Part shown: piece after piece, positions 4,492 to 28,028 of the stretch
Position numbering within the stretch: the stretch's first letter is position 1
Layout of the letters: every line of letters begins with the position of its first letter
IMG/VR virus record: IMGVR_UViG_3300011113_000195
Span: 1 to 28,573 of that record
Direction: 5' to 3' (one strand)
Length of the DNA stretch: 28,573 bases
Origin: a virus
Program-made: the position numbers and the translations under genes
The notes under the pieces: model-generated
Seen by the model: only the letters and a program-made list of their open reading frames with translations
Told to the model about the DNA's origin: nothing
Database searches by the model: none

Positions 4492-5099
4492 TAATAATTG
4501 ATTTTCATGTTTGGTCTTGTAGCTGAATTTCTTGTACCAAATCCAGTTGGGTAACTTGCATCTAATTGTTTATACCAACTTAAAAACTGCGCACTTGTTG
4601 AATGGCATTCAGCCCACCCGTAACCACTTTGCCAACTACCATCTTTATTCATCCAAATAATTATAAGATTGTCAAGTCCATTATAACAAAAGTTACTATC
4701 AAAGTTTATGTTGTTATAACCCGATGTAACAGTCCAATTAAACGTCTTAACTGTTTGCAAATCTTTTAAACCTGCAATGCCACTTACATCTCCATTTGAG
4801 TTTGTTATTTGAACATTAGTTCCAAATTGAGAATCTGTAATGTGCGCTAACTTTATTGTTTGATTGTTAAATGTGTAACCTGTAGAATAGCCAGCCATAT
4901 GTATCTGTAAACCCGTTATATTCTTTTGTGTTCCTAATTCACTTTGCTGTAAAATAAACATAGTGTGAGAATAGTTGTAAAGACCATAAGCAGGATAATC
5001 ACTTACATTAGTTGTGCCTTCTGTAGTAACCCAGTTAAGATTTCTTACAGAACAACACCTAACATAATTCTTTACAGATAATGGATGTAAAGGTATCAC
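4491..5099 (-). CDS. adhesin-like surface-binding protein with a Bacteroidota extracellular-type domain
   Basis: A 202-residue protein rich in Ser, Thr, Asn, Tyr and Trp. From about residue 110 it reads TFNWTVTSGYNNINFDSNFC, then YNGLDNLIIIWMNKDGSWQS, and closes SATRPNMKINY. This pattern (W...GyN.I.F...F.Y.G.dNLiI......gSw....W......Q.......YPTG.gtRn..RPNm.i.Y) is one I know from secreted or surface proteins of Bacteroidota, often those exported by the type IX system. The phage may have borrowed it for binding the host envelope. The start is GTG at 5099, in a GTGA overlap with the stop of the 93-residue gene; no better ATG lies nearby. Confidence 0.6.
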   Translation of the reverse strand: MIPLHPLSVKNYVRCCSVRNLNWVTTEGTTNVSDYPAYGLYNYSHTMFILQQSELGTQKNITGLQIHMAGYSTGYTFNNQTIKLAHITDSQFGTNVQITNSNGDVSGIAGLKDLQTVKTFNWTVTSGYNNINFDSNFCYNGLDNLIIIWMNKDGSWQSGYGWAECHSTSAQFLSWYKQLDASYPTGFGTRNSATRPNMKINY

Positions 5100-5377
5100 T
5101 CAGCGTATGCAATGATTGTTCCGCTTGTTAAAGTAAGATTAGTGAAAACAGCATCACCAGGAGCGTAAATAATAGCACCTTGTTTTAATGTTTTACCACT
5201 CAATCCTATTGAAGATAAATAGTTAGTTGTAGTATCTCCATTTAAACCACCAGTTAAAGTGCCTACTACTGTATCAGCTTGTACGATAAAACAGTAATAT
5301 TTTTTACCTGTTCTAGCTGTTGTATTATCAATATATTCACAACCTCCATTAGCTGTTAATCTTAATGCGTTTGCCAT
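5096..5377 (-). CDS. small beta-rich fibre/tail accessory protein
   Basis: A 93-residue protein: MANALRLTANGGCEYIDNTT, then YYCFIVQADTVVGTLTGGLN, and a C-terminus GDAVFTNLTLTSGTIIAYAE. The repeated short beta stretches and the AIIYAPGDAVF turn resemble small trimeric fibre-tip or head-fibre modules in Bacteroidota phages. Its likely role is as a structural add-on near the fibre. The ATG lies 22 bases below the GG of a conserved GGTACTTTA motif, an arrangement seen at several other genes here. Its stop overlaps the next gene's GTG. Confidence 0.55.
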   Translation of the reverse strand: MANALRLTANGGCEYIDNTTARTGKKYYCFIVQADTVVGTLTGGLNGDTTTNYLSSIGLSGKTLKQGAIIYAPGDAVFTNLTLTSGTIIAYAE

Positions 5378-5390
5378 GTCTTTTATTTTT

Positions 5391-5399
5391 TAAAGTACC
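5391..5399 (-). promoter_or_regulatory. GGTACTTTA motif upstream of the 93-residue gene
   Basis: The minus strand reads GGTACTTTAAAAAATAAAAG between the stop of the 55-residue gene and the ATG at 5377. It is one of seven copies found just upstream of start codons in this window. Confidence 0.5.
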
Positions 5400-5400
5400 A

Positions 5401-5568
5401 TTATTGTTGTTCAATGTAACCAAATCTAATTTCTGTTTGTGGATAAAGTAAGTCATAAGCATAAAACTCTTTCAATCCATCATACTTACCACCATAATAA
5501 TAAATGTTATATTTATTAATTATTTTACCATTTACTTCTATTGGTTCGTTTTTAATCTTATAATACAT
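5401..5568 (-). CDS. small hypothetical protein (55 aa)
   Basis: A short frame that fills the gap between the fibre gene and the 93-residue gene. It starts MYYKIKNEPIEVNGKIINKY, continues with NIYYYGGKYDGLKEFYAYDL and ends with IRFGYIEQQ. The ATG at 5568 lies just after the fibre stop codon at 5570-5572, with an A-rich leader inside the fibre end (GGATATTAAA). The Tyr-rich beta-like composition resembles the neighbouring fibre proteins. No family recognised; it may be a small fibre chaperone or a conserved short structural protein. The tight fit with both neighbours is the main support. Confidence 0.6.
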   Translation of the reverse strand: MYYKIKNEPIEVNGKIINKYNIYYYGGKYDGLKEFYAYDLLYPQTEIRFGYIEQQ

Positions 5569-5569
5569 T

Positions 5570-6715
5570 TTAATATCCTTTTATGTTAAATGAATACATT
5601 ACACTTATTGGATTTGTAACCCAATTAGGATTAGTTATTTGAATTATTAAACTATCATTTAAAGCATTAGCTAATGAGCTTCTAAAATATAACTGATTTA
5701 TTCTTTCACTATGTTTTATAGTTCCTAATGTTTGTTCTGTTGATTGAGTTATATTTTGAAGTTTAATAGTTGAATTTTCTGTACTTCCTAATGTTGTTCT
5801 AACAAATACAGTTACATAAATATCATAAATACAATTAGTCTTAATACTTTTAAAAGGTATAGTGTTAGTTGTTTCAGGTGCAAAATTATTTAAAGCACCT
5901 GAATAATAAATAGAAGCATCTGGAGGATTAACATTTGAAGTATCAGCATATAATTCAAAACTATATAATGGTGCTGGTGTATAACCTAAAACCGTAGCAA
6001 TTGATTTGTTTTCATATCTTGTTGTTCCTGAACTCCAAAAAATGCCATCATTATTTGTTGGTGTAGGTAAATAACAATCATGAAGCTCATTAATTTCATA
6101 ACCGTTATCAATCTTAACGTATATTTTCCCTTGGTTAGCATGAGCATATATAACATATCCTAAACGTACTCCATGATCTGGAGCTGTTGGTTTTACTTTT
6201 GTTATTCCTCCTGGAGTTGTAGCACTTAAAAATAAAGCATCACCATCTGCCCATGTTTCACCTTGTAAACTTCCTGTTGTATTTATTCCAGTAACCTCAC
6301 CAATAACAGTTAATTTACCACTTTGATTGTTATTTATATTTTCAAAAACAACACCAATAGTATTAGCACTATTTGAATCACTATCTGCTAAAGCATAATC
6401 AACCGCTAATCTTTGCCCTTGCGCAGTAATTACTTTTAAAACTTTATATTGAGATGCTAAAAGGTTATCAGTTGTTTTATTTACTACTGTTAAAAATAAA
6501 TTTTCAGGATAAGCACTTGCTCCACCTTCTGGCACATAGTCCAATTGTGACCATGTTTGAACTCCATCACCTATTTTAAAACGTTGTTGGTCTGTTGAGG
6601 TATAAAATAAATCACTTGTAAACGCAACCTCTCCGGCAGCTAATATCGGATTGTTTGTAGCCCAATTTGCTGCTGTATCTCTTCGTAATTGTATCTTTGC
6701 TGTTAATGTACTCAT
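5570..6715 (-). CDS. tail fibre / host-recognition protein with MTD-like N-terminus
   Basis: A 381-residue protein. Residues 5-70 (AKIQLRRDTAANWATNNPIL, AAGEVAFTSDL, FKIGDGVQTWSQLDYVPEGG) match the N-terminal domain of the major tropism determinant and many phage fibres: a qLRRgtaa.W...npiLa.GE.g.e.Dt....kiGDG...W..L pattern. Such domains trimerise and attach the fibre to the tail. Residues 90-210 look like a beta-rich shaft (VNKTTDNLLASQYKVLKVIT and onward). The C-terminal 150 residues are beta-rich and could carry the receptor-binding head. It overlaps the upstream gene by 4 bases. Confidence 0.75.
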   Translation of the reverse strand: MSTLTAKIQLRRDTAANWATNNPILAAGEVAFTSDLFYTSTDQQRFKIGDGVQTWSQLDYVPEGGASAYPENLFLTVVNKTTDNLLASQYKVLKVITAQGQRLAVDYALADSDSNSANTIGVVFENINNNQSGKLTVIGEVTGINTTGSLQGETWADGDALFLSATTPGGITKVKPTAPDHGVRLGYVIYAHANQGKIYVKIDNGYEINELHDCYLPTPTNNDGIFWSSGTTRYENKSIATVLGYTPAPLYSFELYADTSNVNPPDASIYYSGALNNFAPETTNTIPFKSIKTNCIYDIYVTVFVRTTLGSTENSTIKLQNITQSTEQTLGTIKHSERINQLYFRSSLANALNDSLIIQITNPNWVTNPISVMYSFNIKGY

Positions 6716-7314
6716 GCTTGAACTATTGTATTGCTATAAATTGTAGAACTCGAACCTCCATCTATTGTACTAACTACCAAAACTTGATAAGTTTCACCAC
6801 CTTTTAATGTAGTTATTGTGTTTCCGTTTTGATCTATAATAGTTACTAAATTTGATGTTCCTACATTGGTAATAGTTGAATCAAAAGGTATTTGGCAAGT
6901 ATCGTATTTAAATGGCTGTTTTAACTGAACATCAAAATAGTAACCTGCATCTTCATCATCAAATCTCGGCTCACTAAAAGGATTTAAAGTAATGTTATCA
7001 GTTATTAATTTCCAACCATAAATAGTAGAACTAAGTTGAGAAATAATATCTAAACATATCTGTTGAATATCGCTAAACAATTCTAACTCATTTGTCTTTC
7101 CTTTTATAAGCCTATCCATTATGTATATTCTCAGTACATAAACATAGGCATTGCCTTGTACCTGTGGAGCTTCATAATCAACCCACATTGCCGGGTAATT
7201 AGTTATTCCACTTGTTGCAAATTCTACTACACTACCATTACCAAATGAATTAATTTGATAGTGAGCGTTTGCAATGTTATTTAGGTTTTTTATTGTTTGG
7301 TTTAATGTTATCAT
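6712..7314 (-). CDS. tail-terminator-like / tail completion protein
   Basis: A 200-residue protein. Residues 1-140 read as a small alpha/beta domain with MITLNQTIKNLNNIANAHYQ, AMWVDYEAPQVQGNAYVYVL, and the helix NELELFSDIQQICLDIISQL, then PRFDDEDAGYYFDVQLKQPF. A helix of this kind between strands, with an ending DDxxGxxFxVxLxxP, fits the tail-terminator proteins of Bacteroidota siphophages. The last 50 residues (TIIDQNGNTITTLKGGETYQ) look like a small appended beta domain. It follows the connector gene, where a neck or tail-terminator gene is expected. A palindrome sits directly upstream of its ATG. Confidence 0.55.
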   Translation of the reverse strand: MITLNQTIKNLNNIANAHYQINSFGNGSVVEFATSGITNYPAMWVDYEAPQVQGNAYVYVLRIYIMDRLIKGKTNELELFSDIQQICLDIISQLSSTIYGWKLITDNITLNPFSEPRFDDEDAGYYFDVQLKQPFKYDTCQIPFDSTITNVGTSNLVTIIDQNGNTITTLKGGETYQVLVVSTIDGGSSSTIYSNTIVQA

Positions 7315-7373: not shown

Positions 7374-7937
7374 TTAGTAGCGTTTTCTTTTTTCAAATTT
7401 TTCTTCATAACTAATATATCTTTTGTTACGACCTAAGAAAATTCCATTATCGTAAGCATAAAGTTGAGGTACAATAGTATCAAAGCCACTGCCGGGATTA
7501 TCGTATAATGGATAGTCACTTGAATTTTCTAACAAATACTCAATTAATCTATTTGTATGATATTGCGCTTTGTCAGTAACTAAATTCATAAATTGATTTA
7601 ATTCTGAATAATCAACTCCCGTACTGTTATCACTATTTTTCCTTACAATGTTCTTATTAGTAACCTTATAAGTTAAGAATGGCGCAGCTTCAACCATAGT
7701 CCACCACTTTAAAGCAGGGATTATATAATCATCTAATAAAGTAGTATTTAAAGCTGTTAAACTTCCGCTTTGAACTTGACTTATAATTTCATTATAAAGC
7801 CCTGAACCAATATAATTACGAATGTGTATTTTTTGAGCTTCTTCAATTGAAATTCTAATATATTTTTCATCTACATTAGGATCTACAAATGTATAGTCCT
7901 TAATGTATGTTGCTGTTAATAATAATACTGTCGCCAT
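7374..7937 (-). CDS. head-tail connector / head completion protein
   Basis: A 187-residue, mostly helical protein. It begins MATVLLLTATYIKDYTFVDP, then has EEAQKIHIRNYIGSGLYNEI, LLDDYIIPALKWWTMVEAAP, and a conserved-looking end with NRLIEYLLENSSDYPLY. Helical proteins of about 180-190 residues with a Y-I-G-x-x-L-Y motif and a W-rich middle helix usually follow the portal in Bacteroidota phages and are annotated as gp6-like connectors (DUF6712-type). They bind below the portal to join head and tail. The gene touches the portal stop-start at 7937, consistent with coupled translation. Confidence 0.6.
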   Translation of the reverse strand: MATVLLLTATYIKDYTFVDPNVDEKYIRISIEEAQKIHIRNYIGSGLYNEIISQVQSGSLTALNTTLLDDYIIPALKWWTMVEAAPFLTYKVTNKNIVRKNSDNSTGVDYSELNQFMNLVTDKAQYHTNRLIEYLLENSSDYPLYDNPGSGFDTIVPQLYAYDNGIFLGRNKRYISYEEKFEKRKRY

Positions 7938-9853
7938 TATTTTTTAGTTTTTACAACGTTAGCCTGCCAAATATGTCTGCAAAATGGTGTTCGTGCTTCA
8001 CCACCTTTACGAGTCCACCAACCACCTCTAAAATTCCAAACATCCCATCCTACTATCTTACTAATTTGTTCTATTTGGGCCCTTGAATACATTTTGTTTG
8101 CATCCAAAAGTTTAACACAAAACTCTCTGCTATTTCTTTTGTTTGGTTTTACACCTGGTCTCCATTCATAAGAGTACATGATTTTAAAATCTTCGAACTC
8201 ATTACCTATTTTATTAGCTTGTCTAATTGCTGAAGATTTAGGTACACGAATAACTTTTTTCTCACCGCCACTTACTTTCTCTTTTACGCTTATTTGCTCT
8301 TCATCTACAAGGTCTTTAATTAAGTCGGCTACTCTATCTTCTTTAATTCTTAAAGTATCTGCAATTGTCTTATTTTCCATTAATGGATCTTTGTCTAACA
8401 ATGCAACTATATCTCTTTTTAAACTATTGCTTAGAGGTGAAATTTCAGCAAACTCAAATTTGCCATCTTCATTCATAAACTTTTGCTCATAAAATTCAAA
8501 TGAGTCTTTATCTTCACCAAACATTTTAAAGATTTCAATTATCTCATCAATTTCAGAAACACTTTTAAATGAATGTTCACAACAAGTATCTTCAAGTTCA
8601 GGCTCACAAAATCTATGAATAGCACTTGAAACAATCGGCTTTACTTCCTCTTCTATTGGAGGTAATCCGTACATTTCACGAACTTCGTTTTTAGTCATTA
8701 CCTTTATTTTTTCTTCAATAGGTAACTGTTCTTCTAATGGCTCAAGTTCTTTTAAATAAATACGATTTCCAAATCCTTTTAACTTTAATAAGTAATTAAA
8801 ATCCTTTTCTATTTCTCTTTGATTTGGTACTATGTAAGTTGATTTGTAAAGTTCGTAAGAATCATTTATCTGGTCTTTATTACCTAACTCTCCAGGTGTT
8901 TTAATACCTACTAACATAGGGTTTGGAATGTGATGCCCTATGATTAATTCTTGAATAACTTGGTCGTTTAATTCAGTCAATTGAGCATCTACGTTTTGAG
9001 GTGTTAAATGTTCAATTGTTGGAGCTGTTTCTCTATTGCCACTAAATGAAATTAGTAAACTATTAGCCCTATCTGTTCCGGTGAATTTCTCTTTTAAACG
9101 TGCTTCAATTTCTTCTTTCTCTTCTTCAGTTGGTCTGCCGTTTGAAAAGTTTAAAATTGTGCCTGCGTTAAAGCCACTTTTTATAGCATTTAATCTGTAA
9201 TTAGAAAGCTCAACATCAACCTCTGCATAAACTGCTGAAGCTACATAGTCAGGTAATGGATAAGCATCTAAGTCAGGTCTGTATTCTTTACTTACAAAGA
9301 TTTGTCTGCCTGTTGGTTTCTCAGGATCAAATAATGGAATATACTCTAAGTCGGTATCTTCAGGTGTTTGCTTTTGCTTACTCCAATCTTTAGAATACCA
9401 ATAACCATCGGCATCTTTTGCTTTTCTTAGGTTGTTGTAAGGAAAATGTAATATCTCAAAGTTGTTACCTGCTTTATTCCAAATAACCTCTAAATAATAA
9501 CCTCCGAATAACTTTTTATCTAATACACATTTTTTTACAATGTCTTTTAAAGTATCGAAATTAGTATTCTCTTTATTTAAAAAGTCATTTGCTCTCGCTA
9601 TATCTTCAATTGACAAACTATCACTATCAAAGCCAACACCAGCGCCACAAATGTATAAAACCTTACCGTTAATAAAAGCGTTATGCTTAGAAGAACGATT
9701 GTACAAATAAAGCAAATAAGCTGGGTAATTATTGTAATAGCCATCTCTTTCAGCTCCATAAATAATCCACTCTTTTGATTTCTCTTCTTTAAATACAGGT
9801 GTTTTATGTGCCTGTAGTTTAAGGTTAATTACATCGTATATATTATTCTCCAT
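7937..9853 (-). CDS. portal protein with a C-terminal helix-turn-helix-like and Cys/His extension
   Basis: A 638-residue protein. Residues 1-400 show portal features: a mixed N-terminus (YYNNYPAYLLYLYNRSSKHN, ANDFLNKENTNFDTLKDIVK), a middle (YRLNAIKSGFNAGTILNFSN, EEKEEIEARLKEKFTG) and a stem-like helix near IQELIIGHHIPNPMLVGIKT. The portal forms the dodecameric DNA channel of the capsid. Residues 474-525 form a winged-helix-like unit (SLKRDIVALLDKDPLMENKT then IADTLRIKEDRVADLIKDLV). Residues 575-638 hold FC (579), FRGGWW and CRHIW (625-629), like C-terminal domains of MuF-type head proteins. Its start overlaps the upstream gene by 11 bases. At 638 residues it is long for a portal. Confidence 0.8.
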   Translation of the reverse strand: MENNIYDVINLKLQAHKTPVFKEEKSKEWIIYGAERDGYYNNYPAYLLYLYNRSSKHNAFINGKVLYICGAGVGFDSDSLSIEDIARANDFLNKENTNFDTLKDIVKKCVLDKKLFGGYYLEVIWNKAGNNFEILHFPYNNLRKAKDADGYWYSKDWSKQKQTPEDTDLEYIPLFDPEKPTGRQIFVSKEYRPDLDAYPLPDYVASAVYAEVDVELSNYRLNAIKSGFNAGTILNFSNGRPTEEEKEEIEARLKEKFTGTDRANSLLISFSGNRETAPTIEHLTPQNVDAQLTELNDQVIQELIIGHHIPNPMLVGIKTPGELGNKDQINDSYELYKSTYIVPNQREIEKDFNYLLKLKGFGNRIYLKELEPLEEQLPIEEKIKVMTKNEVREMYGLPPIEEEVKPIVSSAIHRFCEPELEDTCCEHSFKSVSEIDEIIEIFKMFGEDKDSFEFYEQKFMNEDGKFEFAEISPLSNSLKRDIVALLDKDPLMENKTIADTLRIKEDRVADLIKDLVDEEQISVKEKVSGGEKKVIRVPKSSAIRQANKIGNEFEDFKIMYSYEWRPGVKPNKRNSREFCVKLLDANKMYSRAQIEQISKIVGWDVWNFRGGWWTRKGGEARTPFCRHIWQANVVKTKK

Positions 9854-10889: not shown

Positions 10890-11858
10890 TTAAGCGTTAG
10901 TATATTGTACTACGTGATCGATGAACTTAACTGCACAGCCAGCTCTGAAAGCTCCAAATACCTTATATACTCGGTCATCCTGTGAGTACCATGCTTCGAT
11001 AGTATCAGTATCAGATTGTAAGTCAGTTCCGTAAACTAAGTTTGAAGCGTAAGTTGCAATAACACGATTACGTGCTGCAGTAGGTAAACTACCTGTATCG
11101 ACTGGGTTATCGTTATTTAATCCGCTAACGGCAATAACCTTCATGTTAGTACCTGGATACATTAATTCCCAATTGTTCCATACATTATCAGTAGTGTACT
11201 GAGAACCATAGATGCCATAAGTAGAAGTTATCTTAGCAGCTAATACTCTGAAAGTATCATAACCACAGAAAGCAACGATTGGTTCGTTTGCAATTGCAGC
11301 AGCTGGTACTTTTGAATAAATATCATCAAATATAGTCAACACGTTAGTTGAGTTCAATGTTGAAGCTGTTGCTGCTACTGCTGTACCTGCTACATCAATT
11401 GTTCTTAACCAGCCATTCATTTGTTTTAATACTGTTGAATTGCCGTAAGTTGTTGAGCCCTGCCAAATCATTTGTTCTACGTTACGTGCTACTTGAGCAA
11501 TTTTTCTGTCGATAATGTTTTGTGCAATTGACATTGAATCTACGTTAGCTCCTGCCGGTAAATACTTTTGTGTAAAGTACACGTTTAAGTCATTTAAACA
11601 GAATTGTTCTGCAAACTGAATACCTACAGTTGCAATTTCAATTTGATTAATTGTTGTTGTTCCTGAAGAGGTAAAAGAACAAGCAGCCGATTGAAATGGT
11701 ACTGTTGATTCTAATACTGGGATTTTTGCTGAAGATTTGATTCCTGTACGGATGTCAACTCCTAACCCTAATGTTTTAGCGCCTAAAATCGCTTTGCTAA
11801 TTAAGTCCGCCTTATTTTCTTCAATATAAGCGGTCATTGTGCCTAATGAAAATGCCAT
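10890..11858 (-). CDS. major capsid protein
   Basis: A 322-residue protein of the HK97-fold capsid type. It has an N-terminal helix and arm (YIEENKADLISKAILGAKTL), an E-loop-like region (KSSAKIPVLESTVPFQSAAC), a spine-helix region (ISIAQN-like SIAQNIIDRKIAQVARNVEQ, with MIWQGSTTYGNSTVLKQMNG), a helix before LTIFDDIYSKVPAAAIANEP, and a C-terminal strand-rich core (RVYKVFGAFRAGCAVKFIDH). This order and length are typical of Bacteroidota siphophage capsids, and the scaffold-like and protease genes come just before it. The subunits assemble into the icosahedral head. The ATG at 11858 has an A-rich leader and no GGTACTT motif. A hairpin follows the stop codon. Confidence 0.85.
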   Translation of the reverse strand: MAFSLGTMTAYIEENKADLISKAILGAKTLGLGVDIRTGIKSSAKIPVLESTVPFQSAACSFTSSGTTTINQIEIATVGIQFAEQFCLNDLNVYFTQKYLPAGANVDSMSIAQNIIDRKIAQVARNVEQMIWQGSTTYGNSTVLKQMNGWLRTIDVAGTAVAATASTLNSTNVLTIFDDIYSKVPAAAIANEPIVAFCGYDTFRVLAAKITSTYGIYGSQYTTDNVWNNWELMYPGTNMKVIAVSGLNNDNPVDTGSLPTAARNRVIATYASNLVYGTDLQSDTDTIEAWYSQDDRVYKVFGAFRAGCAVKFIDHVVQYTNA

Positions 11859-12515: not shown

Positions 12516-13574
12516 TCATTTAGTTGCAATCTCAGCCACTTTTTTTCTCAAGTTGTGTATTCTATCAGCCAATGATTCGATAATGTCAACAGGCGCATCT
12601 TTTAGCTTTCTTTGAGCAAAAGCACCCTCAACACTAAAACCTTTAAAGACTCCTGTTTTTATAAAATCGTTCCAAACTTCGTTGTTATCTACTTTAAAAG
12701 TTCCGAACCATGATCCCTCTGTTAATGTAGGGTAGCCTTCCGGTGTTTTGATTCCACGCTCTTTATCAATGATAAAAGATTCAACCATGTAAACACCGTT
12801 TACTTGTCTTTCAGCATCGTGCATCATATTTACGTTATGAGTATAACCCTTTTTAAAGAAACGTTGTGCAATCTTTTCGATTTGCTCTTTATCGAATACT
12901 ACATAATACTCACCGCTTTCGTCTTTGCGGTATATTGGAAGGTCAGCAATCATTAATGCTCCGCTAATCATTCTTTTTTCTTTATTAGCAAAGAATTTGA
13001 ATTGAGCGTTCATTCCTTTATTTTCCCATTTGCTATAACATATAGCAGCTGCCTGGTCTTGTTCTATTCCATTTCCTACTTCAACAGAGATGCAACGAGA
13101 TACAAATTCATCTTTACTTTCACCTGCACGTGGATTAACTACCATTTCTTGTTTATCTATTTGCTCAAGTTTTCTTTGCGCCCATTCAATACCTGCATCT
13201 CCACCCCATGCTAACCACATTAAGCGACCACATCCATCACCTAAAGCCTTTTGACTGTTTTGTCTATGCCTTTCAAATCCTGCCATTCTCGCAATGGTTT
13301 CTCTGCTTATAGGTTCACCATTAGCCAACTGATTGGCTCGTGCTTTTCCTACTGGAGTTCCGCAATCACCCCATCCGTTTTCTTCTGCCCATCTTAAAGC
13401 TATCTTTGCATTCTCACTCGCTTGTTTTGGATAGTCATCATAGCTTTCAAAGTTATGTTCTTTAAAAGCGTGCCAGTTAGTTTCTATGGCAGGCGCGTCT
13501 ACCAAAGCTATGTATTCTACACCAAGTTCATCATTGTCATCAATTACTAATTTATACACCGGTAAATTTTCCAT
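12516..13574 (-). CDS. XkdF-like prohead protease with inserted domains
   Basis: A 352-residue protein. Residues 1-35 (YKLVIDDNDELGVEYIALVD, APAIETNW) start the XkdF-type fold. Residues 205-320 continue it, with HNVNMMHDAE (candidate catalytic His252), EGSWFGTFKVDNNEVW and KGFSVEGAF (candidate Ser314). Between them, residues 45-140 carry a domain with WGDCGTPVGKARANQLANGE, ISRETIARMAGFERHR and LAWGGDAGIEWAQRKL, and residues 147-185 carry a second unit (ESKDEFVSRCISVEV, CYSKWENKG). Both units are familiar from other phage head proteins. The protease trims scaffold and capsid proteins during head maturation. It follows the tape measure gene after 1 base and precedes the scaffold-like and capsid genes. 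Confidence 0.72.
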   Translation of the reverse strand: MENLPVYKLVIDDNDELGVEYIALVDAPAIETNWHAFKEHNFESYDDYPKQASENAKIALRWAEENGWGDCGTPVGKARANQLANGEPISRETIARMAGFERHRQNSQKALGDGCGRLMWLAWGGDAGIEWAQRKLEQIDKQEMVVNPRAGESKDEFVSRCISVEVGNGIEQDQAAAICYSKWENKGMNAQFKFFANKEKRMISGALMIADLPIYRKDESGEYYVVFDKEQIEKIAQRFFKKGYTHNVNMMHDAERQVNGVYMVESFIIDKERGIKTPEGYPTLTEGSWFGTFKVDNNEVWNDFIKTGVFKGFSVEGAFAQRKLKDAPVDIIESLADRIHNLRKKVAEIATK

Positions 13575-15494: not shown

Positions 15495-18443
15495 TTATGA
15501 ATAAACTCGTATTTCTAATGATGTACTTCTCAAAACATCATCTGCACCTGTCCCTGCATTATTTCTTGTTTGTATTTTAATTATATTATCATTATGTCTA
15601 AAAACAGAAGCAATATAATCACTTGTTGAGCTAACAACAGCTTTATAATTTATAAAAGTTTTATTTTCTATAAATTCACCAGTTAACTCACCTTCATAAT
15701 CACCTGCCCCTGTTCTAGTCCATGTTATGCCACTACTTAAAGTATTTTCTAAAACATAAACAGTCGGGTTATTAGTTGTTTCTTGATTTATTAAAGCTAT
15801 ATAATGTTTATAAGAAACATTGTTTAATGTCTTAATACCATTGTTATAAGTTACATTTGATTCTGTTACTGTTATTCCGCTGCTATTAGTTACTGATACG
15901 TTTGAAACACCGCTTAAAACAGTAACACCCGTACTTGTTGTTACAGATACATTGTTAGAACTTGGGTAAACAGTAACACCACTTGAAGATAGTATTGAAA
16001 CGTTTTGATTATTGTTACCTACAAAGTTTGCATTCCCTATTATTATAACTCCATTGCCTGAAAGTACTGTGTTATTTTTACCACTTACTACTGCTCCCTC
16101 TGTTACTACATTATCATTGTAATAGGTATTTCTTTGTGTTGGTGAAATATCAACACCATCTAAAACACCTCCGTTTGTATCAAATCCATTATCATCTTCG
16201 TATGGAGGTAGTGTTTTAAGTTTTATAAACTCACATTTAGTAGGTTGGTTGTTTATCCTATCGTAATCAATTATTTTATTTAATCTCCAATAATCGTTTT
16301 CAAAAAAGAATGTATTTCTAAAATCCAATTCTTGAATATCCCACTCATTAACTAAAAAATATCCAACGAATAGTTTAGAATCTTTATCAGCTATTTGCTC
16401 TATGTAATCTTTCCAATATTTGTTATAAAGATTATTTAAAGTATATTTTTCTAATGAGTAATATACTTGTTTAGGTACTTCAAAATTTAAGTCAATTGTA
16501 GGATTATCTACATCATCTAAATGACCACAATAAGCATATTGGTTATTTATAAATTGCCCACCACTTCCTGTGATATGTTTCCATGGATAATCGGTATCTT
16601 TTAAACCACCGTAGTAAAGTATTCTAATATTAGATTGACAAGTTTTTATAGTTCCATTACTATCTAACTGATATATTTTAGGTATTACCCTATCATGACC
16701 TATTGTGTTTACTAATGGTGTTGGGCTAAATATTAATTCAGTTTTTACTTCACCTTTTAGAAAATCATTTTCAATATCGTATTTTTTCTGCCCATAAACC
16801 TCTGTATAATTATTAAAATAATTACTATTAAAATAATCATTGTCTTGTTTATATGTAAATAAATAAGTTTTATTATTTAGCTCACCCATTGGCACTATTT
16901 TAGTTTCCTTTGAGTAATCTAATTTATCAGACCAATCTTTTGTAGTTGCAGTATTGTAAAATGTAGGTCTCGGTTCAATTATTAATTTGTTAGCATTTGT
17001 TTTATCTACTTCAACAAATAAGTTAAACATTTTAATTATTGAATTAAAAAATTCACTTTGTTTGATTTTATCTGGTAGTACATTAGATAAAACAATTGTA
17101 TCTGATTCACTTATTGTTGTATCTTCTAATAAAGAATAAAATACTGAATCTGTTAAAATATTTACAGTAGGGTATGAGCTTGATTGACTTTGAAAAGTAG
17201 ATGATCCTGATGTTGCTTTATAACACCTACCAAAACCTTGTGCAAATATAACTTGTGCTACATCATTTTCAAACATGTATAAATTACCTTCTAATAAACC
17301 ACCTACTGTTGATGTTGTAGCACCTTGTGTTACTGTTTGACTTGCACCTGCCGAAACATTTAATGAATCTGCAACATTTGGAAAACTATCACTTGGTTTT
17401 AAAACAACTGGTATTGATGCAATACCGTTTGAATAAGATATTATATAAATAGTTCCTAAACTATAATAAGTAGGTATATAAGCTGTTGGTGTGCTACAAT
17501 TATGTGTTACATTTAATTGAAATTGAAACTTTAATTTATATGTACCACTCTTTGATGCTTGAAATGTAGTATTAAATTGAAATACATTACTTGTATCATA
17601 ATTTGGAGGTGTTGTTTCATCTTGAAATGTAATAACTTTATTATAAGGTATAGAAGGTAATCCTGATTCATTTGTGTAATTAGCATTTATATTAATGCTT
17701 TGATTACTTGTTTTACTTACTCTAAATGTTCTATCTTTTATTTGTTGTTCAGTTAATTGTAAAGTAGAACCGCCTGAATAAGGTATTATTAACCTTTTAA
17801 ATAATTCTGTATTGAAAAAGTTTGATTGATAGCTAAAGTTAGCTTCACTAAACATTTTGTCAATAATAGTTTTAACATAAACAGATGGAAACATCTCTGT
17901 TACCTTAAATTCAGAATTTATCCTATATCCATAATCAATCATTGGGTAAACATAACCAATGCCTATTGGAGCAGTCCAACTTGTTACTTGATTATCTCTA
18001 TTATAAGTATGGTTGTATTCGCTTAAATCTAAATCCCTTAAATATCCATTTGTGAAATCTTGATAAACATTTTGAAGCTCACCAAAGAATGCCACTTCAT
18101 ATTGTATCTCATATTTATCCGTTACATTTACATTTAATAATTGACAAATACCTTTGAACTGTGTTGCTTCGTTATAGGTTATTTCTGCAACTGCTTTTAA
18201 GTTCGGGTTAAAATTCGGACTAAAGTTAGTAGTGCCTGTACTATTGATGACTGCATTAACGTTCCATATATTTGAAAACAATTGATTGTTAAATGTAGTG
18301 CCAGGTAATATAACCGTTTTGCTCCATGTTGTAGAACGTTTCTCAGGTTCACGTATATCTGCAATATTAAAGTTAAGAGGTATTGATACCTCATCCGTTA
18401 AATCTATTTGCTCGTTATTGATATAAATCTTAGTTAAAATCAT
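15495..18443 (-). CDS. large tail-tip protein (tail-associated, Bacteroidota type)
   Basis: A 982-residue protein. The N-terminus (TKIYINNEQIDLTDEVSIPL then ADIREPEKRSTTWSKTVILP, GTTFNNQLFSNIWNV) is the hallmark of a large tail-tip protein of Bacteroidota phages that takes the place of the baseplate/tail-lysin proteins of others. A long beta-rich body follows. Residues around 795-870 hold repeats (SSSGVTVYPSSNNVSVTTST, GVTVLSGVSNVSVTNSSGIT) that look like beta-helix turns. The last 110 residues (HYIALINQETTNNPTVYVLE then NTLSSGITWTRTGAGDYEGE) form a module I associate with phage fibre ends. It probably contacts the host and triggers DNA release. It overlaps the upstream gene by 4 bases. Confidence 0.72.
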   Translation of the reverse strand: MILTKIYINNEQIDLTDEVSIPLNFNIADIREPEKRSTTWSKTVILPGTTFNNQLFSNIWNVNAVINSTGTTNFSPNFNPNLKAVAEITYNEATQFKGICQLLNVNVTDKYEIQYEVAFFGELQNVYQDFTNGYLRDLDLSEYNHTYNRDNQVTSWTAPIGIGYVYPMIDYGYRINSEFKVTEMFPSVYVKTIIDKMFSEANFSYQSNFFNTELFKRLIIPYSGGSTLQLTEQQIKDRTFRVSKTSNQSININANYTNESGLPSIPYNKVITFQDETTPPNYDTSNVFQFNTTFQASKSGTYKLKFQFQLNVTHNCSTPTAYIPTYYSLGTIYIISYSNGIASIPVVLKPSDSFPNVADSLNVSAGASQTVTQGATTSTVGGLLEGNLYMFENDVAQVIFAQGFGRCYKATSGSSTFQSQSSSYPTVNILTDSVFYSLLEDTTISESDTIVLSNVLPDKIKQSEFFNSIIKMFNLFVEVDKTNANKLIIEPRPTFYNTATTKDWSDKLDYSKETKIVPMGELNNKTYLFTYKQDNDYFNSNYFNNYTEVYGQKKYDIENDFLKGEVKTELIFSPTPLVNTIGHDRVIPKIYQLDSNGTIKTCQSNIRILYYGGLKDTDYPWKHITGSGGQFINNQYAYCGHLDDVDNPTIDLNFEVPKQVYYSLEKYTLNNLYNKYWKDYIEQIADKDSKLFVGYFLVNEWDIQELDFRNTFFFENDYWRLNKIIDYDRINNQPTKCEFIKLKTLPPYEDDNGFDTNGGVLDGVDISPTQRNTYYNDNVVTEGAVVSGKNNTVLSGNGVIIIGNANFVGNNNQNVSILSSSGVTVYPSSNNVSVTTSTGVTVLSGVSNVSVTNSSGITVTESNVTYNNGIKTLNNVSYKHYIALINQETTNNPTVYVLENTLSSGITWTRTGAGDYEGELTGEFIENKTFINYKAVVSSTSDYIASVFRHNDNIIKIQTRNNAGTGADDVLRSTSLEIRVYS
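15845..16025 (-). repeat. beta-helix-like coding repeats in the tail-tip gene
   Basis: Within the tail-tip gene, several turns of a repeat of about 16-18 residues, with NVSV/GVTV/SGIT at matching spots (SSGVTVYPSSNNVSV, STGVTVLSGVSNVSV, SSGITVTESNVTY). The DNA copies are diverged, so recombination between them looks unlikely, but the unit can change in number. Confidence 0.55.
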
Positions 18444-20924: not shown

Positions 20925-22130
20925 TTACATTAGTGTGTATCGTCCTGTTTTATATTTTGAGTAAGCGTGGAATCCTAAACATGAAGCCATAACACCATCA
21001 TCATGGAATCCATTTGGAGCTGAGTATTTAATAACTCTGCTTTTAGGATTGTATTCATAAGTAAACATTTCTAATTCTTTATCTAACCAGTCCACGTTTA
21101 AGAATCTTACCTCTTTATTTTGATTGGCTACAATTAAACTTTCAACTATTTCTTTTTTACTTTGATTTGTAGTAACAAATGGTTCTATTGTGCAGTAACT
21201 TGCACATTCCTTTTGTAACATTTCAAATATCACATCACCAATTGAATTAACCTCAACCAATGCAGTTTGGACATTATTTGTCCTTAATCCTTGAGCTATA
21301 TTCTTTACAATACTTTGCCAGTCAGTATGTCTCCATCGTTCAATGTAGAATTGTTCACCTTTTTCATTGAATAAAGACAGTACAGAGTAATCGTCTGCCC
21401 TTCCTAAGTCAATCCCGGCAAATGCTCTGCCATTTGCTTTATTATCACTTAACTGCCTATTATTGAATAGTGTTGCAGTACCATCTACAAACTCGGCTAA
21501 GTATTCCTGTCTAAATACCATATCTGGCAAAGTCAATTTAGCATCATCAATCTCTTTTGGATTAATCATTGGATTGTGGTACGAAGTCATTGTAAAGGAC
21601 TTGTACTGCTCATTAATACCATCTAATTGGTACATCTTATAAAAATGGTTTTTACCTTTTGGAGTTGAAATTAAAAGAACCTTTTTACCTTTTACCAATA
21701 CAGTTGCCCTTAATACCTCAGTCCATGCCTTTTCATCCATAAAGGCAAACTCATCACAAACCAGGTAATCGAATGTAAAACCTCGAATGTTATCATAACG
21801 CTCTGCACTAAAGAATTGAATTGTTGATCCTGTTATGTATTCGAGTACCAACTCAGATTGATTAACCTTTCTGTATATTTCAGGTCTTTTGGCAAATGCC
21901 TTAAAGCAATCGTCAAATACTTTCTTTGATTGTTTATAAATAGGACTTACCCATGCTATCCTAATTGACTTATTGTTTAAAGCCCAAAATAACATTTGAT
22001 TAATAGCTAATAAAGTTTTCCCAAACTGCCTACCTATGTTGATAACGTAGTACTTATGGTTTTCTTTATTTATGCTATCATGTATTTTCTTCTGATTCGG
22101 ATGTGGATTGTATAGTATTGCTTTCGCCAA
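20925..22130 (-). CDS. terL: terminase large subunit
   Basis: A 401-residue protein. Walker A is GRQFGKT at 33-39, and Walker B is YLVCDEFAFM with Asp126 and Glu127. The C-terminal nuclease has AGIDLGRADDYSVLSLF at about 235-250 and FHDDGVMASCLGFHAY at about 380-395, with Asp residues that would bind metal. It packages the phage genome into the prohead with energy from ATP and cuts the concatemer. The length fits the family. The start is TTG at 22130, inside the small-subunit gene, because the frame upstream is closed by a TGA and there is no Met before residue 46. It overlaps the small subunit by 53 bases. Confidence 0.92.
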   Translation of the reverse strand: MAKAILYNPHPNQKKIHDSINKENHKYYVINIGRQFGKTLLAINQMLFWALNNKSIRIAWVSPIYKQSKKVFDDCFKAFAKRPEIYRKVNQSELVLEYITGSTIQFFSAERYDNIRGFTFDYLVCDEFAFMDEKAWTEVLRATVLVKGKKVLLISTPKGKNHFYKMYQLDGINEQYKSFTMTSYHNPMINPKEIDDAKLTLPDMVFRQEYLAEFVDGTATLFNNRQLSDNKANGRAFAGIDLGRADDYSVLSLFNEKGEQFYIERWRHTDWQSIVKNIAQGLRTNNVQTALVEVNSIGDVIFEMLQKECASYCTIEPFVTTNQSKKEIVESLIVANQNKEVRFLNVDWLDKELEMFTYEYNPKSRVIKYSAPNGFHDDGVMASCLGFHAYSKYKTGRYTLM

Positions 22131-23272: not shown

Positions 23273-23968
23273 TTAATTTATTCCTTGAGCTTTAAATACT
23301 ATTGTTTCATTTAATGGTTCATCTTCTGGTGCTGCATATTGTAGAATTGTATTCCCTGAATGATATTTCATTCGTAATTGATTAGCTATTATACTTCCGC
23401 AAGTCATATCGTGCCTATGACCTTTGCACCTTTCATCTTCACTTTCTGTTTTATCGTTATTATTCCATTTACCGATAAATATTCCATCTTTTGATGCTTG
23501 ATGCCATTTGTTAAAAAATTCTTTAGCTATTTGATTATCAAAATTTAACCCTAATAAACCAGCATTTCCATACATTAACATTTTCATGGCTTCATCTCTA
23601 TTTATATTAAAATAGTTTAAGCATTTATCATTTGCCCATGTACCTACATAATGTCCTGCTTCCTGCATTAAATATCCATCTTTCTCAATTAACTCAAATA
23701 TATGATCTATATTCTTAATTAAATAAACAGATGAATCTAACCAAAGTATTTTTTTATAACCTAAATTTTTTACTCTTTCAAATATAAAAGTTTTAAATGC
23801 GTAAGGGTTTTGTGTATGTAATGGGCAAGGTACTTGCTCTTCATCTGTAAATATAAAGAGTTCGCCTTTAAAGTTATGTTCTTGCGCTGTTCTTTTTAAT
23901 CTTGCTGCTCCATTTGAATAGCTACTATTCGCAAAGCAAATAATTGCACATTCAGTAAAGTTTATCAT
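23273..23968 (-). CDS. glycosyltransferase-like protein (GT-A, GT8-like)
   Basis: A protein of about 231 residues from ATG 23968. It opens INFTECAIICFANSSYSNGA, has KKILWLDSSVYLIKNIDHIF with LDSS at about 77-80, then YVGTWANDKCLNYFNINRDE and CKGHRHDMTCGSIIANQLR. A beta strand ending in a D-S-S or D-x-D-like motif, then a hydrophobic helix with a W-N-D-x-C loop, resembles GT-A transferases such as GT8 and related families of unknown fold detail. It likely transfers a sugar from a nucleotide sugar. I used ATG 23968 rather than the TTG at 23974. It overlaps the preceding GT2 gene by 17 bases. Confidence 0.6.
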   Translation of the reverse strand: MINFTECAIICFANSSYSNGAARLKRTAQEHNFKGELFIFTDEEQVPCPLHTQNPYAFKTFIFERVKNLGYKKILWLDSSVYLIKNIDHIFELIEKDGYLMQEAGHYVGTWANDKCLNYFNINRDEAMKMLMYGNAGLLGLNFDNQIAKEFFNKWHQASKDGIFIGKWNNNDKTESEDERCKGHRHDMTCGSIIANQLRMKYHSGNTILQYAAPEDEPLNETIVFKAQGIN

Positions 23969-24533
23969 AGTCAATATATCTGTAATGGTAAATAGGTTCT
24001 TTTATTTCTACTTCCGTTTTTATTAAATTAAACTTTTTCAGTTCCATGCAGAAAGCATAATCCTCAAAGTTACTCTTATCTTCAAACTTAATACTTTTTG
24101 CTATTTCTCTTTTAATTGGAGTTATGTGATTGGTTGATCTTAAATAAACTTCTTGTCCACTTGAGTAATCTGTTATGTAAGGATGATCTTTAGAAATATA
24201 CCAGGAGCGTTTATTTCTTCCATTTGTAGTCATAAATCCATTTATAGCTAAAGCATCAGGTTCTTTTTCCAATGCTGCTAAAACTAAACTAACTGCATTT
24301 GGTAATATCATATCATCATCATCAATAAACCAAACGTAGTCACCGTTAGCTGCATTTAGTAAATCATTTCTTTTTTTTCCGGTAGTCTTTGATCCAACTG
24401 GAGCACAATCACTTATAACCTCAACAAGCCCAAAAGCATTACACATCTCTAACTGATTATTTATTTCAGTATGTAATTCTAAAAATAAATTAGCTCTTTG
24501 TGGTACTGTTGGTATAAGTATTGAAAGTATCAT
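23952..24533 (-). CDS. glycosyltransferase family 2 protein
   Basis: A 193-residue protein that begins MILSILIPTVPQRANLFLEL, then NGDYVWFIDDDDMILPNAVS with DDDD at 71-74, LVLAALEKEPDALAING, and later KSNFEDYAFCMELKKFNLIK. This is a GT2 (GT-A) enzyme: N-terminal nucleotide-binding strand, DxD metal motif, and an ED motif near the active site. It transfers a sugar from a nucleotide sugar to an acceptor, possibly a glycan. It is short for GT2 (typically 230-320). It overlaps its neighbours by 4 and 17 bases, within the sugar operon. Confidence 0.78.
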   Translation of the reverse strand: MILSILIPTVPQRANLFLELHTEINNQLEMCNAFGLVEVISDCAPVGSKTTGKKRNDLLNAANGDYVWFIDDDDMILPNAVSLVLAALEKEPDALAINGFMTTNGRNKRSWYISKDHPYITDYSSGQEVYLRSTNHITPIKREIAKSIKFEDKSNFEDYAFCMELKKFNLIKTEVEIKEPIYHYRYIDYDKLY

Positions 24534-26395: not shown

Positions 26396-27048
26396 TTTTC
26401 AAAATTATAAAAGATTTTATCACTTTGCAATTCATTAATAAAAACTTTTCTATTTTCTTCTATTAACTTTGCTTTTTTGTATTCAGGAATACTTGACTTA
26501 TGTTCCATGTTATAATCCATAGCAAATAAATATTCTTTTGTTCGTGATAGTTGTTGATAAGGAGCGTATGTGAAACCAGCTTTATAAATTCTGTTAGAGT
26601 AACCTGCATGTTCAAATCCATACTGCCCATAATCAGAATTTAAATAACCTACTTTATCCAGTACCTCTTTTGTTAGAAACATAAACACCCCACCACAATC
26701 TTGATATATCTCTATATCGTCTTTTATGATAATTTTATTATGTTTTTTAGTTAAGTATAATAAATGATTTTGTTTTGAGTTTATGAAGTAGTCAGCCCAT
26801 CCCTCTTTTACCGGGTAACAGTCATCGTCAAACAAAAAAATGTAATCGTTATCTATCAAAGTCTTTAAATTTTGATTTTTTGAATAAGCAACTCCACGAT
26901 AATGTACATCTTCATGAATGTGTAAATGATAGTTGTTAGGCTTTACTTTTTCAAATTCTTTAAGCCATGTATCAATGTATTCACTTCTATTTGGTGTGCT
27001 TGTTACACCAATTCCAATACTAATTCTTCTTTTCGTTTCTCGGTCCAT
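26392..27048 (-). CDS. glycosyltransferase-like protein (GT2/GT7-like)
   Basis: A 218-residue protein. It opens ISIGIGVTSTPNRSEYIDTW, has DNDYIFLFDDDCYPVKEGWA with DDD at 74-76, and CGGVFMFLTKEVLDKVGYLN then SDYGQYGFEHAGYSNRI at 118-153. The D-D-D motif and the GG-V-F-M-F...D-K-V-G-Y-L...GFEhaGySNRI region resemble GT2 or galactosyltransferase (GT7 C-terminal) proteins, where the second part binds the acceptor. It probably adds a sugar to a glycan. Its start overlaps the GT4 gene by 46 bases, and its end overlaps the next gene by 4. Confidence 0.7.
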   Translation of the reverse strand: MDRETKRRISIGIGVTSTPNRSEYIDTWLKEFEKVKPNNYHLHIHEDVHYRGVAYSKNQNLKTLIDNDYIFLFDDDCYPVKEGWADYFINSKQNHLLYLTKKHNKIIIKDDIEIYQDCGGVFMFLTKEVLDKVGYLNSDYGQYGFEHAGYSNRIYKAGFTYAPYQQLSRTKEYLFAMDYNMEHKSSIPEYKKAKLIEENRKVFINELQSDKIFYNFEK

Positions 27049-28028
27049 GTGTTTAAATTATAGTTTTTATTCGTATATTCTTTTAATTTCTCTGCATAAT
27101 CCTGGCGCATCTGAGAGCTTTCAGTTAGTCGCTTTATTGCTTTATACCAACCGTTTATGTCGCTATTATCTAAAAATATTGCAGTATCTTTTGTAAATAT
27201 GTTATAAGGTTTAACGTTTGAAACTATTGCAGCATTTCCATGAGCAGCAGCTTCAAGTAGCTTAATTTCCGACTTGCCTTCCGTAAATATGTTTTTTTCT
27301 AATGGTATTAAACTAACATCAGTTAGGTTATAGGCTTTCCCATACTCATAAACGTTAATAGCATTTATTCTTAGGTAGTTACCTTGTTTCATTACTGATT
27401 CATAATATTTGTAATGATCGTTATTTGTATAACCCCCTAAAACAAATTGAGCATTGTTTACCTGCCTTGCTTTTCTTATCGGTATTTGAAGTATCTTAAC
27501 ATCCTGAACATGATGTACTCCAGCAATATAACCAAAACGAATATATTGTGAAGGCTCTTTTTTAGGCTGCCATTGCTCATCTGTTAGGTCTAAACAATTA
27601 GGATAAACCTTTACATTCTTATTAAATGGTATTATTTTGTCAGCAAGTATTTCAGTAGTGCAAGTTACAATATCAACGTGTTTTAAAATATCTTCAGTTT
27701 GCTTTACTATTTGATATTCTTTATACACTTTAAACAAAGCATGAGATTGTGGTAAATGCCAATAATCATCAATGTCAAATATTACTTTACAGCCTAACTT
27801 TTGAAACCTTTTAATTTTCTCTATTGACTTTCCGTATACATCAATTTCACGCTGATAAACAATATACTGATAGTCTTTTATTACTTCGTCTGGCATTACA
27901 TCCAAATCTTCGTAAACATCACATTTAAAGTTAGTGAGGTCTGAAACTTTTGAATAAGGCACTATTAATCGGTGATAGGATAACCCATTAAGGTTTCCCA
28001 TGTTAGCCTTTATTAAAATTTTTATCAT
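27003..28028 (-). CDS. glycosyltransferase family 4-like protein
   Basis: A 341-residue protein with two Rossmann-like halves. The first has KILIKANMGNLNGLSYHRLI, then VIFDIDDYWHLPQSHALFKV (82-101). The second has RFGYIAGVHHVQDVKILQI, FVLGGYTNNDHYKYY, DVSLIPLEKNIFTEGKSEIK and LLEAAAHGNAAIVSNVKPYN; Glu250 and Glu259 lie in the EX7E-like motif of family 4 retaining glycosyltransferases (248-270). It transfers a sugar from a nucleotide donor, as in glycan or LPS assembly. The ATG at 28028 overlaps the sigma-like gene by 26 bases. Confidence 0.82.
   Translation of the reverse strand: MIKILIKANMGNLNGLSYHRLIVPYSKVSDLTNFKCDVYEDLDVMPDEVIKDYQYIVYQREIDVYGKSIEKIKRFQKLGCKVIFDIDDYWHLPQSHALFKVYKEYQIVKQTEDILKHVDIVTCTTEILADKIIPFNKNVKVYPNCLDLTDEQWQPKKEPSQYIRFGYIAGVHHVQDVKILQIPIRKARQVNNAQFVLGGYTNNDHYKYYESVMKQGNYLRINAINVYEYGKAYNLTDVSLIPLEKNIFTEGKSEIKLLEAAAHGNAAIVSNVKPYNIFTKDTAIFLDNSDINGWYKAIKRLTESSQMRQDYAEKLKEYTNKNYNLNTWTEKRKEELVLELV

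Follow-up and report, generated by a model that had tools for sequence, protein, structure and literature searches.

A phage portal protein with a predicted winged helix and a MuF-like C-terminal end module

The minor head proteins SPP1 gp7 and Mu gpF belong to the MuF superfamily (PF04233, PF06152, MuF3, MuF4), and the known MuF toxins terminate in toxin domains. The superfamily and its toxins are described in the available excerpts of PMC5576092, which also cite a paper that terms gp7 a DNA-binding protein in its title (Stiege 2003). According to the accessible parts of PMC6316719, SPP1 gp7 is a head protein positioned by the portal: it is bound by the portal and is thus placed inside the procapsid. 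There it supports the start of infection, and only about 25% of the virions without gp7 are infectious. For Microbacterium phages of the clusters EA3, EA5, EA8 and EB, a MuF-like function and the portal have been reported in one gene, and in other phages of the same report the MuF-like gene is fused to the capsid maturation protease (PMC7302621, main text). These portal-MuF fusions resemble our case by description, not by sequence comparison, and the words 'winged' and 'helix-turn-helix' are absent from the main text of that report. Polyvalent proteins are head proteins that bear extra domains beside MuF or portal parts (PMC5512222 and PMC9503650, as excerpted).

Here, we analysed a 28,573-base virus record (referred to as the window) that encodes a portal protein with an extended C-terminal part, for which SPP1 gp7 and Mu gpF are likely kin. 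The closest described portals are those of the Nonlabens phages P12024S and P12024L (phrog_33693), the core of which is 29% identical (residues 11-366). As in the window, the end module is fused to the portal in these phages, but the protein has 560 aa, lacks the winged helix and continues for about 40 residues after the end module. Together with L208, a Flavobacteriaceae prophage in a Pricia antarctica MAG, the Nonlabens phages are among the kin of these uncultured viruses, and judged from ORF positions and by eye from the sequence, L208 apparently has the same gene order around the portal. The relevant features of the window are the following:

7937-9853, minus strand: portal ORF, 638 aa
8711..9853, minus strand: portal core, residues 1-381 (Pfam Phage_portal, PHROG; boundary from homologue comparison)
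8567..8617, minus strand: acidic Cys/His linker (HRF...CCEHSF), residues 413-429 (Cys conservation, charge)
8444..8566, minus strand: acidic helical segment with GED...FEF, residues 430-470 (sequences, alignments; helix predicted at 432-445)
8234..8437, minus strand: predicted winged helix-turn-helix, residues 473-540 (AlphaFold2, VIA-align, HTH_24 in the relative L059)
7940..8203, minus strand: basic, putatively MuF-like end module, residues 551-638, with C579, C625 and H627 (hhalign, charge)
7374..7937, minus strand: DUF6712 gene, directly after the portal gene (PF20459, E 3.8e-23)
10890..11858, minus strand: major capsid protein (PF17236 SU10_MCP, E 9.4e-6)
12516..13574, minus strand: XkdF/S78-type prohead protease (PF14550, E 8.8e-16 at residues 197-318)
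20925..22130, minus strand: terminase large subunit, TerL (phrog_2, E 5.4e-50)

The ORF coordinates of the portal and the DUF6712 gene overlap by one base, and the product of the latter is likely to be a head-tail connector. The portal core matched PHROG portal families with a best E-value of 2.4e-38 and Pfam Phage_portal at residues 88-394 (E 4.7e-8; 33.0 bits, which is below the cutoff of 39.1). These core profiles and the surrounding head genes identify the 638-aa ORF, at the level of sequence, as a phage portal protein. Elsewhere in the window, glycosyltransferase-like genes lie past the terminase gene at 27003-28028 and 23273-23974 (Glyco_trans_1_4, E 2.7e-6; Glyco_transf_8, E 0.049), among several ORFs of about 200 aa. 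A gene at 139-669 resembles Endonuclease VII (phrog_2340, E 4e-11) and also matches Lar-like restriction alleviation proteins (phrog_5558, E 2.2e-8). For the 982-aa protein encoded at 15495-18443, neither PHROGs (searched to E 0.01) nor Pfam (searched to E 0.1) gave a match.

The C-terminal motifs listed in the initial annotation were all recovered: the acidic Cys-containing linker CEPELEDTCCEHSF at residues 416-429, EFCVK at 577-581 (C579), FRGGWW at 608-613 and CRHIW at 625-629. At least one linker Cys is conserved in all nine winged-helix representatives (9/9), and the spacing of the Cys residues varies. Metal binding by the Cys/His residues of the linker was considered and set aside because this spacing is too variable to call. 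Residues 382-473 carry a net charge of -12, and by eye residues 430-470 look like the GEDIDEDEWELID segment of other portals of the family.

The same annotation had placed a helix-turn-helix-like unit at residues 474-525. Pfam HTH_24 matched residues 477-521 of the window portal with an E-value of 0.03 and the corresponding part of L059 with an E-value of 1.8e-5, which is over the cutoff. When we modelled residues 405-638 with AlphaFold2 (43 sequences), a winged helix was present in the predicted structure, and the unit turned out to be slightly longer than proposed, with the wing reaching to about residue 540. The mean pLDDT was 73.8 for the model and about 85 for the winged helix. Helices were predicted at 473-488, 494-501 and 505-517, followed by strands at 521-528 and 531-538, and VIA-align aligned the domain with PadR, MarR and CggR proteins, with a maximum Z of 11.5. 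These data leave hardly any doubt that residues 473-540 are predicted correctly as a winged-helix fold. In phylogenetic reconstruction, the nine winged-helix portals known earlier formed one clade in a careful tree of 76 cores (support 100/100). The same was true for all 20 winged-helix rows (20/20, SH-aLRT 100) in a tree of 87 cores, which was built by a quick method, contains long branches and took 11 of the 20 core-bearing rows of a distant set of loci (L427-L446). Within this distant set, from which L447, located at a contig edge, and L448, in which core and end module are split between two ORFs, had been dropped, the layout of winged helix plus end module is retained down to about 30% identity. 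In the literature searched, mostly outside subscription journals, we found no portal that contains a winged helix or helix-turn-helix; in the excerpts of PMC10457771, the term helix-turn-helix is used of baseplate proteins.

We detected the end module in 266 ORFs of 286 sequences (285 loci plus the window), and 256 of these 266 ORFs also carry the portal core. Eight of the ten ORFs without core start at a contig edge and the remaining two (L187, L191) are separate ORFs. After two ORFs with incomplete modules had been left out, 254 portal ORFs with core and complete end module remained, and all of them (254/254) contain both the RxFC-type and the CxHx[WFY] pair; before clustering at 90%, one portal may stand under two locus ids in this survey. 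This constancy, like the retention of the layout in relatives of about 30% identity, is more than chance would produce. An additional scan gave 80 end-module ORFs, of which four begin at a contig edge and all others (76) contain the core. The separate end-module ORF of L187 and L191 starts at the end of the portal ORF, and the two ORFs overlap (351-2537 and 2518-4428 in L187). In both loci a THNHP motif lies in the insert that closes the first ORF, and the second opens with a short helical-looking stretch. MuF-type genes usually adjoin the portal gene, and here this part is fused to the portal in the window and forms the separate next ORF in L187 and L191.

To relate the end module to other head proteins, we compared profile alignments with hhalign. 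The alignment of window-type end modules (A4) matched that of P12024-type modules (A3) with a probability of 97.5% (E 5.6e-12) and an alignment of five free-standing MuF-like ORFs plus L305 (A7) with 97.4% (E 9.5e-12). A pooled profile of 38 modules (A5) matched A7 with 98.3%. For each of these comparisons, none of 100 column shuffles performed as well as the real alignment (0/100). The second step, from A7 to an alignment of 12 PF04233 proteins (A8), yielded 92.0% (E 6.7e-7) over 117 columns. When gappy columns were removed, 0/100 column shuffles were as good; with all columns kept, 2/100 shuffles scored higher than the real alignment, and we attribute the extreme outliers in this run to the gappy columns. 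Direct comparison with A8 gave 0.9% for A5, with 7/100 shuffles as good, and 0.2% for A4. PF04233 and PF06152 were also absent when C-terminal fragments were searched at E up to 10 and the full portal at E up to 1.

A search of 395 genomes of the phylum of G216 with the A5 profile returned nine matches at E <=0.01. Three of them (L291-L293) were short or contained stops and were dropped. The others were the portal of L212 and five ORFs, 292-572 aa long, that begin with a helical part and terminate in RxFC...GG(W/Y)xCxHxW. PF04233 itself matched two of ten A7-type proteins, L305 (E 1.6e-4) and L313 (E 1.6e-3), both below the cutoff, so that these two are matched by both families; L313 in addition weakly matches Phage_min_cap2 (E 0.036). 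The PHROGs matched by L288 and L289 bear the names head morphogenesis (E 0.0015) and head maturation protease (E 2e-5). The MuF-like proteins of L287 (988-2004) and L288 (1096-2091) have a C-terminal stretch of the CdiA_C type (PF18451), which scored above the cutoff in L287 (E 3.1e-7) and below it in L288 (E 0.0013), and these two proteins are candidate MuF toxins outside PF04233. Near the MuF-like gene of L323 no portal was identified; GemA-, AAA- and HTH-type genes, which look like a Mu-like element, adjoin it and a CTP synthase gene lies on the other side. A weak match to phrog_13409 (E 0.06) was dropped, since its one match in the 395 genomes (E 7.1e-4) contained internal stop codons.

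When the ORFs of the window were searched back with the A7 profile, the portal was the single match (E 2.1e-7) and no second MuF-like ORF was found. The profile alignments span just the C-terminal part of the MuF-like proteins, and in our model the winged helix and a short predicted helix (540-549) precede the end module in place of the helical N-terminal half of MuF. Taken together, these comparisons make it likely that the end module is related to MuF. The proposal of the initial annotation that portal and minor head protein are fused is thus supported through the bridge that leads from the end module via free-standing MuF-like proteins to PF04233, but a direct PF04233 match fails, Pfam gives no MuF for the portal end and the helical half of MuF is missing.

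The end module of the homologue L131, folded alone, adopted a predicted beta-alpha-alpha-beta arrangement with a pLDDT of 89, and in the window model the block means of pLDDT in this region ranged from 46 to 89. Comparison of the end module with 23 Foldseek candidates by VIA-align gave no Z >=2. In BFVD, the end module was matched by structure in the portal A0A6J7X6Q2 (E 1.5e-7) and in five proteins named XkdF (A0A6J5N616, A0A6J5M430, A0A6J5NSI2, A0A6J7WLI9 and A0A6J5PSY8; E 1.1e-5 to 0.037), which could represent fusions with the protease, or else portals that took their name from a domain shared with XkdF. The BFVD hits named 'minor capsid protein' and 'head morphogenesis' were not significant (E 5.5 and 9.2). 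Profile searches of the PDB gave no match with the alignment A1 or with the full portal and no significant match with A7 and A8. In tblastn searches of 50,697 phage records, the window end module found no match and that of P12024S found four P12024 records only.

Portals of this family vary in a slot between the core and the acidic GE...EWELID segment (a GED...FEF segment in the window). In L182 (portal ORF 5006-7177) this slot holds an ART-PolyVal domain (PF18760, E 4.9e-17). The L185 portal carries ART-PolyVal after the end module (PF18760, E 4.5e-16) and a weak acetyltransferase match before it (E 0.047). In L197 and L203 the slot contains a domain that, by eye, is shared with the N-terminal part of the window's protease, and residues 424-536 of the L446 portal match positions 36-147 of the protease-family model (E 1.1e-46). 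Thus, residues of about 46-152 of the XkdF-type protease belong to the same domain family as the insert of related portals; for this N-terminal protease domain no Pfam family was found at E up to 1. Eight of the 80 end-module ORFs match the protease-family model. We also looked for protease-end-module fusions in the collected loci and none was shown; the match in L375 concerns the N-terminal domain, not the S78 part. The cores of L182 and L157 agree at 348 of 350 positions (99.4% identity), with the ART insert present in L182 and absent from L157, and identities of 98.0% and 99.4% were calculated for the core pairs L157/L197 and L203/L193. Since cores with 97-99% identity carry ART-PolyVal, the protease-shared domain or no insert, there appears to be a swap site inside the portal gene. 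The end modules of L182 and L157 are just 62% identical, which suggests that the exchange extended into the end module. A short helical insert requires at least 12 changes on the 76-core tree (YNGAQ; this name and NAT are our own insert labels).

Several explanations of this C-terminal part have to be weighed. The initial annotation saw in the helix-turn-helix a DNA-binding-like unit that could contact packaged DNA, and in this reading the winged helix would be a true DNA-binding unit that grips packaged DNA or recognises a DNA end. Its clear fold, its best structural matches, which are DNA-binding regulators, and a wing net charge of +3 or +4 in six of nine rows of the window's own group speak for this idea, as does the view, given in the excerpts of PMC5850374, that some small terminases bind DNA via winged helices. 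However, the recognition helix, expected to be basic in a DNA-binding winged helix, has a net charge of -4 in the window portal and is negative in 14 of 20 rows (11 core-bearing rows of the distant set plus nine from the 76-core tree). Over the whole domain the values lie between -9 and +3, and the surface residues of the helix are not conserved in the alignment; all charges given here simply tally K, R, D and E residues and are no measure of electrostatics. With a mostly acidic recognition helix and a domain inherited in one clade, the DNA-binding reading finds no support and we consider it unlikely. The end module has a net charge of +9 in the window and of +7.6 on average over the representatives, being positive in 75 of 76, and the linker/slot region averages -15.1 among them. 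By these counts, the winged helix would rather contact protein, and DNA contact, if there is any, would fall to the end module. Hence, it is reasonably likely that the winged helix binds protein rather than DNA.

It might also be argued that the end module is a Cys/His domain with a convergent motif and no relation to MuF, and that the extension is a lineage-specific crown or barrel. The failure of the direct PF04233 comparison and of Pfam fits this argument, but the strong two-step profile chain with its shuffle controls, the fact that the MuF-like profile in turn detects portals, and the double matches of L305 and L313 make it improbable. Still less probable is that the C-terminal part is cargo, which is cut by the prohead protease or ejected with the DNA and acts in the host. 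Related portals do bear ART-PolyVal (L182, L185) and other inserts beside the end module, the CdiA_C stretches described above terminate some MuF-like proteins (L287, L288), and effector fusions to portal and MuF have been proposed to be injected (PMC5512222 and PMC9503650, in the excerpts at hand). On the other hand, Pfam detects no enzymatic domain in the window portal, which in this respect differs from L182, L185 and the polyvalent proteins, and the winged helix is not swapped like the slot inserts; its inheritance within one clade is more in keeping with a fixed structural part than with exchanged cargo. A bolder possibility, less likely than not, is that the portal of this family serves as an internal display platform, with a constant core and a constant MuF-derived end module on either side of an exchange site. 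ART-PolyVal, an acetyltransferase-like domain, the XkdF-shared domain or nothing would then be swapped between cores of 97-99% identity, and one clade would have fixed the winged helix immediately ahead of the end module as a structural or sensing part. An exchange site in the portal would put up to 12 effector copies at the exit channel.

The best explanation, which we favour with some reservation, is that the C-terminal piece from a minor head protein of the MuF/SPP1 gp7 type is present in cis on the portal. The crown and the C-terminal barrel of portals lie inside the head. TerL binds the portal stalk, which is located outside (PMC5850374, accessible text), and the contact with the terminase that the initial annotation had envisaged is therefore unlikely. 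By analogy, the residues after the core probably lie in the head lumen, and the chain would most likely run from the portal crown inward. If it does, each subunit, of which there are normally 12, would hold a linker, a winged helix and an end module above the DNA channel. The winged helix would most likely be a protein-protein element that touches neighbouring crown subunits, the scaffold or other inner proteins. The end module is the likelier of the two to touch DNA or the leading DNA end, and it may well make such a contact, with the odds slightly against it. It is probably metal-bound; the putative site has three invariant ligands only (F-C...C-x-H). Functionally, the end module may do the job of gp7, which the portal positions within the procapsid and which aids the start of infection, and a built-in MuF-derived end would secure this lumenal placement at every subunit.

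Fusion of portal and MuF is already known, and the added winged helix and the nearby swap site look new. If our interpretation is true, this portal would offer a way to study MuF/gp7 function, which is hard to study since gp7 is sparse in virions, at full occupancy and covalently fixed on the portal. The exchange site would mean that portals, besides MuF proteins, carry swappable cargo, and the route by which head-packaged effectors reach the host would become testable.
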